From assembly GCA_007693965.1 (NCBI GenBank), contig RECQ01000060.1:62001-126000 (forward strand): a DNA stretch of 64,000 nucleotides, read 5' to 3'. Both the position numbers and the translations under genes were made by a program. The notes beneath the pieces were generated by a model. It was not told the DNA's origin, did not search any database, and worked only from the letters and a program-made list of their open reading frames with translations. Positions 21,828-25,342 of this stretch are shown piece by piece. How positions within the stretch are numbered: the first letter of the stretch is position 1; the number at the start of each line of letters is the position of its first letter. The stretch is from Phycisphaeraceae bacterium (GTDB lineage: Bacteria > Planctomycetota > Phycisphaerae > Phycisphaerales > UBA1924).

Positions 21828-22289
21828 TCAAGAATCTGGACAATTGAGGCGCTGGTCAAACTTGCCCGAGCATGCAGGAACAGCCACCGTAGCTATTGCA
21901 GGCTGACTCTCGCAGCAGATGCTGTGACACCATCTTAAGAGCACCTCGCAATCAAATGTCCAGATTTCACCACAGCCGAACCAGCCAAGCTTTGGAAACT
22001 CACACGGAACTTCGCCAAAACACGGCTGCCCTGTGTCCTTGTCTATACATAGACCTGGATCACGATAGAAAATCAATTGTCCCGGTTGTGGCGGATTAAT
22101 TATTGGGAGTCCAGTCGGGTCTGCCGCCGCCCCTTGCGGGGAGCCCAAGACTACATCGCCAATCGTATCACACTGGCGGCAAAGTCCTTGATTCGCTTGC
22201 AACGAGGAAAGCGTAGCGCCGACGGCGAGTAGCGTAGTGATACCCACGGTCGTCGAGCGAAACGAATGACTTTTGAATATGGTTGCCAT
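21828..22289 (-). CDS. Small exported cysteine-rich protein of unknown function
   Basis: A 153-aa protein that I do not recognise. An N-terminal signal peptide (TTVGITTLLAVGATLSSLQA) is followed by a mature part with 12 cysteines, grouped as LCRQC, LCID, PCFGEVPC, FGCG, DCEV, WCHSICC, PACSG and NCPDS, suggesting several disulfides. It has lower GC and more polar residues than its neighbours. The start ATG was chosen for the signal peptide, with aaaggc upstream; an in-frame start 45 bp earlier would put a charged stretch before it. It is the third gene of the MauE/pseudopilin cassette, 34 bp after the pseudopilin stop, so is probably co-transcribed and may be the exported cargo or subunit. Confidence 0.65.
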   Translation of the reverse strand: MATIFKSHSFRSTTVGITTLLAVGATLSSLQANQGLCRQCDTIGDVVLGSPQGAAADPTGLPIINPPQPGQLIFYRDPGLCIDKDTGQPCFGEVPCEFPKLGWFGCGEIWTFDCEVLLRWCHSICCESQPAIATVAVPACSGKFDQRLNCPDS

Positions 22290-22323
22290 TTTGGTGCCTT
22301 TCTTTGCGACATGGGGTCGTGAA

Positions 22324-23097
22324 TCAAAAATCAATCCCTTGATGTCCGTTGAGGGTGGATAGGACAGGTGTGCCGCGGTCTTCTCTGCGAGGATGCAATG
22401 GGGGCGCCGCAGCGGGGATGGCTTCGTCCATATTTTTCAGAGCCGCCGCCCCGTCAGCGAACGCGACATGGCTCAAATTCTTTTCCCAGCGGGGATGATC
22501 CATGTGCAGGAGAACTCCTTTCCGAGAAGGACTGGCAATATCTGAAAAGCGCACTACCTGCACACCTTTTTCTGCGAACTCCTCGATCGATAGCCCGGCG
22601 CCTGGATACGTCCAGATGTGCGGCTGAGTCCGCATGGTTTTTGAGAGCACATAACGGGTCGGAATGAGATGCATACGATCACCCATTGTGCTCGCATGCA
22701 CCGGCCCATCTTCAAGGGGATGCTCAATGAGAAAGTCCTCGTACGCGCTATGCCAGTGAGGCCCGTTCGGGCCGGTCCAGCGAGACAGGATGAGGTTCCA
22801 GCCGCGTCCCTGTCCACGGTATATGTTCACCGCTTGCGGTTGTCCCCAGGCAGAACTGTAATACCACTCTGTGCCCGTCTCGGTCCAATGTCCAATGTTC
22901 ACCACACGGTCCCGGTGTGCTGCTGCGTATCCATGGAAATCGATCATGGTCTGTCGTAGGTTGGAGAGATCAAGCAGATCTTTTCGCACGACGACAAGCT
23001 GACGCAGCGCTGGAATCATGAGTGTGGTCAGCGTCGCTGCGATCGCGATGACGACAAGCAACTCGACAAGTGTCGCGGCGCGGGGTGATCGTATCAT
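22324..23097 (-). CDS. Prepilin-type N-terminal cleavage/methylation protein (pseudopilin)
   Basis: A 257-aa protein with a classical type IV/type II prepilin start: a short basic leader (IRSPRA), then ATLVELLVVIAIAATLTTLM. Glu5 of the mature protein and the hydrophobic helix are present. The -1 residue is Ala instead of the usual Gly, which prepilin peptidases can tolerate. The long helix continues into a soluble domain with NLRQTMIDFHGYAAAHRDRV, and the end (HVAFADGAAALKNM) recalls the H...DG tail of planctomycete DUF1559-like pilins. It overlaps the MauE-like gene upstream by 4 bp and precedes the Cys-rich gene, so forms the middle of a three-gene cassette. Confidence 0.8.
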   Translation of the reverse strand: MIRSPRAATLVELLVVIAIAATLTTLMIPALRQLVVVRKDLLDLSNLRQTMIDFHGYAAAHRDRVVNIGHWTETGTEWYYSSAWGQPQAVNIYRGQGRGWNLILSRWTGPNGPHWHSAYEDFLIEHPLEDGPVHASTMGDRMHLIPTRYVLSKTMRTQPHIWTYPGAGLSIEEFAEKGVQVVRFSDIASPSRKGVLLHMDHPRWEKNLSHVAFADGAAALKNMDEAIPAAAPPLHPRREDRGTPVLSTLNGHQGIDF

Positions 23098-23591
23098 GAG
23101 TCTTCACCCTCTATTTGCTCAACTTCTACGGGACGAGATCCACTACCGGAACAGAGCGCGATGGTCGATGCGCCGATCAATCCCACGACAGCCAAGGCGA
23201 GCCACAAGGCAGCTGGCGCCTCTGCGCCGACTGCGCCAAAGCAGCCGCATCCGGTCACGGAGTCACCTTCAACGCTCAGCGTCATGGCGTGAATGACGAG
23301 AAATATTGTGAACAATCCAACAGTGAATAGAGCGGCCTGGGATCGTTTCACGCCGCTCAACAGCCAGAGCGCCAGCGTAATCTCGAAGGCCGCGACTGCG
23401 TATACCCAACCTCTGGAAGTGAGATGCGCCTGTACTGAGAGAAAACGAACGGCGGGTTCGGGGTGGATCAGCTTCGATACGCCAGCGACGCCCAGCACCA
23501 GGAAAATGCCAACAGTAAAGAGCTGCGGCAGCACGCGACTTGAGAGCACTTGAAGCAACGGGAATCGATGGGTGTTTGTGCTCCCAGACAT
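23094..23591 (-). CDS. MauE/DoxX family redox-associated membrane protein
   Basis: A 165-aa inner-membrane protein with four hydrophobic helices: LPQLFTVGIFLVLGVAGVSK, WVYAVAAFEITLALWLLSGV, AALFTVGLFTIFLVIHAMTL and LWLALAVVGLIGASTIAL. Between helices three and four is VTGCGCFGAVG, a paired-Cys CGCFG motif seen in MauE-type proteins that pass reducing equivalents or support disulfide chemistry outside the cytoplasm. GGGAG lies 7 nt before the start ATG. It leads the cassette with a pseudopilin and a 12-Cys exported protein, making a role in their oxidative folding a reasonable inference. Substrate and partner thioredoxin are not visible. Confidence 0.75.
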   Translation of the reverse strand: MSGSTNTHRFPLLQVLSSRVLPQLFTVGIFLVLGVAGVSKLIHPEPAVRFLSVQAHLTSRGWVYAVAAFEITLALWLLSGVKRSQAALFTVGLFTIFLVIHAMTLSVEGDSVTGCGCFGAVGAEAPAALWLALAVVGLIGASTIALCSGSGSRPVEVEQIEGEDS

Positions 23592-23869: not shown

Positions 23870-25342
23870 TCATCCCCCCGACGGAACCCACAGATAATAA
23901 AACCCCATCCCCCCGTGCCACCCGTCAGCCAGCCCGGGAATGTTCACCTGGAGGAGGTTGACGTCCCCGCCGCGGCCTGTTGTTTCGGGCGTGTTTGTCG
24001 AGCCTTCCGACATGGCGGCGTAGGGCGATCTCGGGCGGGCGGCGTCGCTGTGGTAGGTGATGAGGCGCGATGTTTCGATGTTCACCAGTTTCTTCGCGCG
24101 CTCGAAGGCGTCGCGCACGTCTCCGGTTTCATCGACCAGCCCCATCTCCAGGGCCGCGGCGCCGGTCATCACGCGTCCGTCGGTGGCCGCCTCGACGTCG
24201 GCGGGGCTGAGGCCCGAGCGCCGCTCGACCACCAGCCCGCGGAAGCGGTTGTAGAAATCGTCGACCATGCCCTGGAGCACGGCGTACTGCTCGTCGCGCA
24301 TCGGCGCCAGCGGGTTGGCGAGGTCCTTGTTGGGGCCGCTCGTCACAGCGCGCGTGCGCACGCCGATGCGGGCCAGGCCGTCGCTGAAGTTGACGGTCTG
24401 GATGATGACGCCGATCGAGCCGGTGACGCTGGTCGGCTGGGCGACGATGTGGTCGCCTGCGAGCGCGATGTAATAGCCGCCGCTGGCCGCGACTTCGCCC
24501 ATCGTCGCGACGACCGGTTTCTTCGACCGCTCCGCGAAGCCGCGGATCTCGCGGTACATGGTGTCGCTGCCGGTGACGGTGCCGCCGGGCGAGTTGATGC
24601 GCAGGACGATGGCGCGGACAAGCGGATCGTTCTCGGCTTTCTCGAGGCGCGCGACGAGTTCATCGACGGGGTTGGGGCGCGAACCGAGAAGGCCGGGCAT
24701 GGAGGCGTCGGCGATCACGCCGCCGATGTGGATGAGGGCGATTTTGGGCGTGGTGCGCCCCGCGCCGGCGTCGGCGAGGACGACGGTCTCCGCCAGGTCG
24801 CGGCGGGAGGGGGCGACGTCGATCACGAACCGCTGGGGGACGCATCCGGCGGTGGGGAGGATGAGTGCGCCGAGCAGGAGGAGGGCGATGAGTCGGAGTG
24901 CCGGTCCGCAGAGTAAGCGCGGAAGCCGTTGGCGCGGGTTTGATTCGTGAGAGGTGTTTGTGTTGGAACGGGCGAGATCTGGAGCGAGGCGCGCGGTGTT
25001 CCTGATCGAGGATTCCTCCGCCCCGTCCGGGGCGGGGGAGTTGGGCGCCGTTTTCCACGGGTTGCGCGGCTGCGCCGCTGCACCCGTGGCTACAACCCTT
25101 CGCCCCTTCGGGGCGGGGGAGTTGGGTGTTGTCGTTTTCCACGGGTTGCGCGACTGCGCCGCTGCACCCGTGGCTACATTCCTTCGCCCCTTCGGGGCGG
25201 GGGAGTTGGGCGCTGTCGTTTTCCACGGGTCGCGCGGCTGCGCCGCTGCACCCGTGGCTACATCCCTTCGCCCCTTCGGGGCGGGGCTGCTCCGATCGGC
25301 GGGTGTGTATCCATCGGCGTGCTGTTTCTCGTGGTGCTTCAT
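23870..25342 (-). CDS. sppA: Signal peptide peptidase SppA-type serine protease, start uncertain
   Basis: A 490-aa frame encoding a membrane-attached SppA (36K type) that degrades cleaved signal peptides. The protease core shows IALIHIGGVIADASMPG, VLRINSPGGTVTGSDTMYRE, the catalytic-serine block MGEVAASGGYYIALAGDHIV, TGSIGVIIQ and SGPNKDLANPL with the likely catalytic Lys. A lipoprotein-like signal (LIALLLLGALILPTAGC, Cys167) starts only at about residue 150. Between the ATG and this signal are about 85 residues translated from 84-bp DNA repeats (SPAPKGRR, VATGAAAQPRNPWK units). No ATG, GTG or TTG lies in frame between the repeats and the lipobox. Either the repeat is translated, or a rare start is used. 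Confidence 0.8.
   Translation of the reverse strand: MKHHEKQHADGYTPADRSSPAPKGRRDVATGAAAQPRDPWKTTAPNSPAPKGRRNVATGAAAQSRNPWKTTTPNSPAPKGRRVVATGAAAQPRNPWKTAPNSPAPDGAEESSIRNTARLAPDLARSNTNTSHESNPRQRLPRLLCGPALRLIALLLLGALILPTAGCVPQRFVIDVAPSRRDLAETVVLADAGAGRTTPKIALIHIGGVIADASMPGLLGSRPNPVDELVARLEKAENDPLVRAIVLRINSPGGTVTGSDTMYREIRGFAERSKKPVVATMGEVAASGGYYIALAGDHIVAQPTSVTGSIGVIIQTVNFSDGLARIGVRTRAVTSGPNKDLANPLAPMRDEQYAVLQGMVDDFYNRFRGLVVERRSGLSPADVEAATDGRVMTGAAALEMGLVDETGDVRDAFERAKKLVNIETSRLITYHSDAARPRSPYAAMSEGSTNTPETTGRGGDVNLLQVNIPGLADGWHGGMGFYYLWVPSGG
25019..25289. repeat. 84-bp tandem hairpin repeat (three copies plus a partial fourth)
   Basis: Copies lie at 25019-25100 (82 bp), 25101-25184, 25185-25268 (84 bp each) and 25269-25289 (partial). 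Each copy begins with a short palindrome (CGCCCCttCGGGGCG) and holds a long imperfect hairpin with arms CCACGGGT and ACCCGTGG around a GC-rich inner stem. Copies 2 and 3 differ at only a few bases. The 84-bp period keeps the sppA frame open. This looks like a REP/BIME-type extragenic palindromic element expanded in tandem. Confidence 0.9.

Follow-up and report, generated by a model that had tools for sequence, protein, structure and literature searches.

A recurring cassette of MauE-like, pseudopilin and exported cysteine-rich protein genes in a Phycisphaeraceae bacterium and its relatives

Three neighbouring genes in a 64,000-nucleotide stretch of a Phycisphaeraceae genome (hereafter the window) encode a MauE-like membrane protein, a pseudopilin and an exported cysteine-rich (Cys-rich) protein, and we found that genes of these three kinds are associated in related genomes above chance. 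The trio is one copy of a multi-copy, co-inherited cassette, and we lean towards the view that its MauE oxidises the Cys-rich partner and that the pseudopilin acts as a coupled, anchored partner. The cassette probably serves the making of disulfide-rich secreted proteins. This function, and any display or export of the products, is predicted from sequence. The features are as follows.

23094..23591, minus strand: MauE-like membrane protein, 165 aa, with a CGCFG motif; PF07291, 47.6 bits
22324..23097, minus strand: pseudopilin, 257 aa, prepilin site SPRA^ATLVE, C-terminus STLNGHQGIDF
21828..22289, minus strand: exported Cys-rich protein, 153 aa, 12 Cys; the ATG at 22289 is the start used
21828..23591, minus strand: whole cassette, in the order MauE, pseudopilin, Cys-rich protein

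The gene layout and motifs described by the sequence-only reading were reproduced. The first and second genes overlap by 4 bp (23094-23097), and the second and third are separated by a 34-bp gap (22290-22323) when the ATG at 22289 is taken as the start of the third; an alternative TTG start of the Cys-rich gene gives a longer frame reaching 22334. The first product contains the CGCFG motif and belongs to the MauE family, as its PF07291 score lies well above the curated cut-off of 27. The second has the prepilin start with Ala at -1 that had been noticed (SPRA^ATLVELLVV, that is, G/A^xxxxE with Glu at +5, before a hydrophobic helix). Its scores lie under the curated cut-offs of the pilin models PF07963 (17 versus 21.2) and TIGR02532 (8.7 versus 16.3), and the H-X9-DG pilin model TIGR04294 gave no match up to E 10. 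The third product has an N-terminal hydrophobic stretch, judged by eye to be a signal peptide, and cysteines at residues 37, 40, 81, 90, 96, 106, 114, 121, 125, 126, 140 and 150. No family in Pfam (up to E 10) or NCBIfam matched it, and a single-sequence fold reached a mean pLDDT of 43.8 and was not used. Between 21500 and 24000 we counted one promoter-like site (1.0 expected) and seven terminator-like sites (2.0 expected), neither of which was used.

The source genome contains five MauE matches, four of them above the Pfam cut-off, and all four of these belong to MauE-pseudopilin-Cys-rich cassettes with the pseudopilin at most 1.4 kb away. The four pseudopilins align almost end to end at 24-29% identity (BLASTP) and share G..G.D near the C-terminus. 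Counted over whole ORFs, the exported cassette protein has 12 cysteines in the window, 12 on contig C70, 13 on C36 and 15 on C40, and the C40 cassette carries MauE and pilin as a single ORF. Up to E 10, the window Cys-rich protein had no second match in the source genome. On C39 a fifth subfamily pilin has a Cys-rich neighbour and no MauE before the nearby contig end.

To measure recurrence we examined 64 loci, 60 of them picked by MauE or pilin matches and not by Cys-rich genes, which yielded 44 same-strand MauE-pilin pairs. An exported Cys-rich ORF was called within 1.5 kb on the same strand in 40 of the 44 pairs and on the opposite strand in 4, using a looser caller devised after inspecting loci that a stricter first caller had missed. 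At 57 generic pilin loci, with the cassette-like locus L144 left out, the looser caller found such an ORF at 3 loci on the same strand and at 3 on the opposite strand (Fisher p = 6e-20 for 40/44 versus 3/57). The stricter caller gave 27/44 on the same strand and 1/44 on the opposite strand, with 3 of 60 generic pilin loci positive on the same strand (one being L144) and none on the opposite strand. The control loci came from the source genome and from named genomes of several groups, with base composition unmatched; the contig scan of the named genomes kept 80 loci, nearly all matched via pilin N-termini. Four pairs lacked a Cys-rich ORF by the looser caller (L071, L074, L091 and L092), yet on reading one is present at L091, and L074 shows part of one by eye.

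A second sample consisted of the first 20 MauE matches listed in a narrow-profile search, taken from previously unused genomes only. Nineteen of these 20 MauEs had a same-strand pilin, and a Cys-rich ORF was called in 17 of the 19 pairs, against 1/19 on the opposite strand; in two pairs none was called. The twentieth MauE, near a contig end, had neither pilin nor Cys-rich ORF. MauE and pseudopilin formed one ORF in 9/44 pairs of the first sample and 13/19 of the second. The sequence-only reading had staked itself on the three genes meeting again elsewhere, and the trio does recur across related genomes.

In a count over 81 genomes of the order, which comprised 112 MauEs and 69 pilins judged to be full-length among the matches listed (the omitted MauE rows were mostly weak), 40/69 pilins lay within 5 kb of a MauE, 35 on the same strand and 5 on the other, and 29/69 had none of the 112 MauEs within 5 kb. 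Among pilin loci without MauE that were read closely, a Cys-rich neighbour was present in 2/5. The pseudopilin subfamily was detected in 133/163 genomes of the family at E 1e-28 and, across the phylum, in 8/294 sampled genomes at E 1e-25, five of the eight from the same family and some with partial matches only. A narrow MauE profile built from the genome's four own copies matched 62/163 family genomes at E 1e-10.

The closest counterpart of the window trio is locus L073 (genome G022), from a different genus of the same family, where the MauE, pilin and Cys-rich genes follow the window's order. The MauEs share 32% identity (E 5e-12) and the pilins 28% over 254 columns (E 7e-28), and the window and L073 proteins are sisters in both trees (SH-aLRT 99 and 98, respectively). 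The Cys-rich proteins (L073:4626-5090) show 29% identity over 98 columns with E 8e-4 in a single comparison, and 11 of the 12 window cysteines, all except Cys114, align with L073 cysteines. By eye, the flanking genes are unlike. A two-row profile of both Cys-rich proteins matched only these 2/163 family genomes, which implies that the window-type cargo either is rare or has diverged more quickly than the cassette around it. The expectation that the Cys-rich gene is conserved is thus borne out by a homologue in another genus, in the same order and with most cysteines aligned, and not by breadth, as similar proteins occur in only those two genomes.

Five gene orders were found in 40 labelled cassettes: Cys-MauE-pilin in 21, pilin-Cys-MauE in 9, MauE-Cys-pilin in 6, pilin-MauE-Cys in 2 and MauE-pilin-Cys in 2, the last being the window and L073. 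The trees required 5 changes of gene order for MauE and 4 for the pilin, compared with a mean of 17.5 in 300 shuffles, while genome of origin changed 31 and 28 times, respectively. Because gene order tracks the phylogeny of both MauE and pilin, we conclude that the cassettes are inherited as units. This result, together with the recurrence counts in both samples, makes it hardly credible that the three genes are unrelated neighbours, even with a window-type Cys-rich protein that is itself rare; chance neighbours were rejected on the recurrence in both related-genome samples.

In the loci read closely we often saw a fourth, membrane-anchored protein of one of two kinds: X1 (about 250-300 aa) has its membrane stretch at the N-terminus, and X2 (about 310-390 aa) has an Arg-containing one at the C-terminus. 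No Pfam family matched the X1 and X2 members scanned, and no X1 or X2 gene was in sight at the window cassette. A search of solved structures with the window Cys-rich protein and with profiles of X1, X2 and two Cys groups gave a best E of 0.12 and nothing usable. The locus of the fifth pilin of the source genome (L102 on C39, 3640-6555) contains a DUF1573-like frame, an X1-like gene, an exported Cys-rich gene and the cassette-type pilin.

The C-x-C pair typical of MauE is present in 43/44 cassette MauEs and missing only from the short frame at L071. A regular expression for the prepilin site matched in 37/44 cassette pilins, with one match (L077) misplaced inside MauE. Where MauE and pilin form a single ORF, the site lies behind MauE in 6/9 cases, and the seventh, L077, matches a prepilin model there (TIGR02532, 22.2, above the cut-off). 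This position implies that prepilin peptidase could split the fused product. The only prepilin peptidase match in the source genome is a partial one of 26.5 bits, right at the cut-off.

From these features we propose the following mechanism. The Cys-rich protein would be exported in reduced form, and the MauE C-x-C pair, which we place in an outward-facing loop, would pull electrons from the cargo thiols and pass them to the quinone pool, so that disulfides would form in the Cys-rich protein. The pseudopilin would be cut by prepilin peptidase, remain by MauE as its anchored partner, and hold or pass on the oxidised cargo. Since the cysteine framework differs between cargo types, each cassette type would retain a MauE of its own. 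That MauE acts here as an oxidant and not as a reductant is a proposal, drawn from the sequences of the genes and their neighbours.

The cysteine content of the cargo is consistent with this mechanism. The Cys-rich proteins are strongly diverged and fall into groups with their own cysteine frameworks, alignable within gene-order types. An even number of cysteines in the mature part was found in 55 of 64 Cys-rich proteins (p = 1.8e-9) and, with four near-duplicates removed, in 51 of 60 (p = 1.5e-8), statistics that treat related, non-independent sequences as a sample. The 64 comprised 40 proteins from the first sample, 17 from the second and 7 others outside the counted pairs; at least 6 cysteines were required, which excludes the odd count 5, and a simple rule supplied the presumed signal cleavage site. 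Among the 44 cassette pilins, by comparison, the cysteine number was even in 13 and odd in 21, and 10 had none. Even counts are what disulfide pairing would be expected to give, and in exported proteins they have been taken as a hint of disulfides (PMC12421883). No match to DsbB or VKOR was found in the source genome, given as 97.7% complete, and the window MauE matched neither family up to E 10. The earlier suggestion that MauE drives disulfide formation in its Cys-rich partner is therefore supported indirectly, by the even cysteine counts, by the near-universal C-x-C pair and by the genome's lack of a DsbB or VKOR match. Cytochromes were rejected as cargo, with CxxCH in just 1/64 proteins, as was the methylamine dehydrogenase light chain for the window cargo, which had no Pfam match.

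An alternative, which we consider quite unlikely, is a role of the Cys-rich protein in metal or sulfur handling, in which MauE would hold the thiols of this partner in the reduced state or load them and make no disulfides. The even cysteine counts in 55/64 proteins would be unexpected for metal clusters, and the rarity of CxxCH also argues against it, while its occurrence in one Cys-rich protein is a point for this alternative. Further points come from the frames seen around MauE. In 5 of 10 high-scoring non-cassette MauE loci whose neighbours were read by eye (L028, L029, L030, L034 and L037), MauE follows DUF1573-like and rhodanese-like frames. The cassette-like locus L102 has its DUF1573-like frame (E 6.6e-4, below the cut-off), and a part that looks DUF1573-related by eye is fused to the MauE of L144. 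The DUF1573-rhodanese-MauE arrangement, from the same bacterial order, has a MauE with CGCFG in common with the cassettes and is possibly a sulfur- or thiol-handling operon. All 27 non-cassette MauEs that were tested group in a single clade apart from the cassette MauEs (SH-aLRT 97); the set also included two rows that were copies of cassette MauEs.

The oxidation of cargo by MauE, which we prefer, is compatible with a second alternative that concerns the destination of the cargo. Here the Cys-rich proteins would be effectors, antimicrobials or surface antigens that the cell secretes, with the pseudopilin belonging to a delivery or display device, as the sequence-only reading had suggested for display. 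Cys-rich proteins that have diverged strongly while each group retains its own cysteine framework would fit such a role, as would the restriction of window-type cargo to 2/163 family genomes by the two-row profile and the copy number, which reaches 18 MauE matches (among the matches listed) and 15 pilin matches in a single genome. The base composition points the same way: G+C is 55.7% in the cassette versus 65.7% in the whole window, it is as low or lower in only 2 of 623 overlapping windows of cassette length (the lowest starts at about 21700, on the cassette itself), and GC3 is 0.51-0.61 in the cassette stretch versus 0.81-0.85 in six other window genes. On the other hand, no toxin, immunity or secretion gene stood out when the loci were read. 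Those Cys-rich proteins that were scanned against known families gave weak matches only: a threonine dehydrogenase model for a member of group A10 (E 4.5e-4), glycocin F for one protein (E 0.09) and others at E 0.018 or worse. We regard this alternative as unlikely.

A more far-reaching version of the preferred mechanism is, in our view, less likely than not. Disulfide-rich secreted proteins that diverge quickly would be made on a private production line, present in many copies across the family. Its thiol oxidase would be joined to a pseudopilin in a polyprotein open to cleavage by prepilin peptidase, physically coupling oxidation to hand-over to a pilus-like carrier. The fusions observed join MauE to the pilin, not the pilin to the Cys-rich cargo.

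The nearest working parallel is the mau cluster, although the window did not qualify as one in the tests made. The beta-subunit of methylamine dehydrogenase is Cys-rich. According to PMC7794033, MauE is speculated to aid disulfide formation in that subunit, so that the two systems would share a MauE and an exported Cys-rich protein whose disulfides MauE may help form. Unlike the mau cluster, the cassette has a pseudopilin beside or fused to MauE and occurs in several copies per genome, and the window cargo has no Pfam match; nor did any MauD-like gene stand out in the cassettes on reading. PMC7794033 also describes MauE homologues in 3 families of candidate RiPP clusters found by decRiPPter; here, in contrast, MauE is partnered by a pseudopilin gene, and the N-terminus of the small protein is, by eye, of signal type.

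Two other systems resemble parts of the cassette. Verru_Chthon cassettes (TIGR02596, TIGR02599) are likewise repeated and hold pilin-like proteins, but the window pseudopilin scored 14.7 on TIGR02596 (cassette protein D), against a cut-off of 70. DsbB and VKOR carry out membrane thiol oxidation serving exported proteins, whereas neither family matches the window MauE and neither was found in the genome.

We found no published description of the cassette in titles and abstract beginnings, with most subscription journals outside the search. To our knowledge, few partners of MauE-type proteins are known beyond methylamine metabolism. The cassette repeatedly pairs MauE with a likely substrate and an often-fused pseudopilin, which makes the question of the MauE substrate directly testable. 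For bacteria in which no DsbB or VKOR can be recognised, it could be a way of forming disulfides. It also indicates that secreted Cys-rich proteins make up a large and so far undescribed set.

Three further observations concern variant layouts and the surroundings of the window cassette. In genome G033, MauE forms the N-terminal part of proteins of 587 and 554 aa (L108 3384-5147 and L109 1782-3446), and the long remainder after MauE had no Pfam match above the cut-off. Locus L144 (2224-5391), in a Fimbriiglobus MAG, appears to be a related layout, in which a MauE bearing an extra C-terminal part is followed by an exported Cys-rich ORF, then a frame of 400 aa and finally an H-X9-DG pilin that matches TIGR04294; the added part of its MauE matches the OS_HP2 and choice-of-anchor D models. 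In the window, a tandem repeat at 25015-25286 (3.3 copies of an 84-base unit, within long frames that overlap) sits just upstream of the gene neighbouring the cassette, and similar words can be seen by eye in the L024 and L025 translations.
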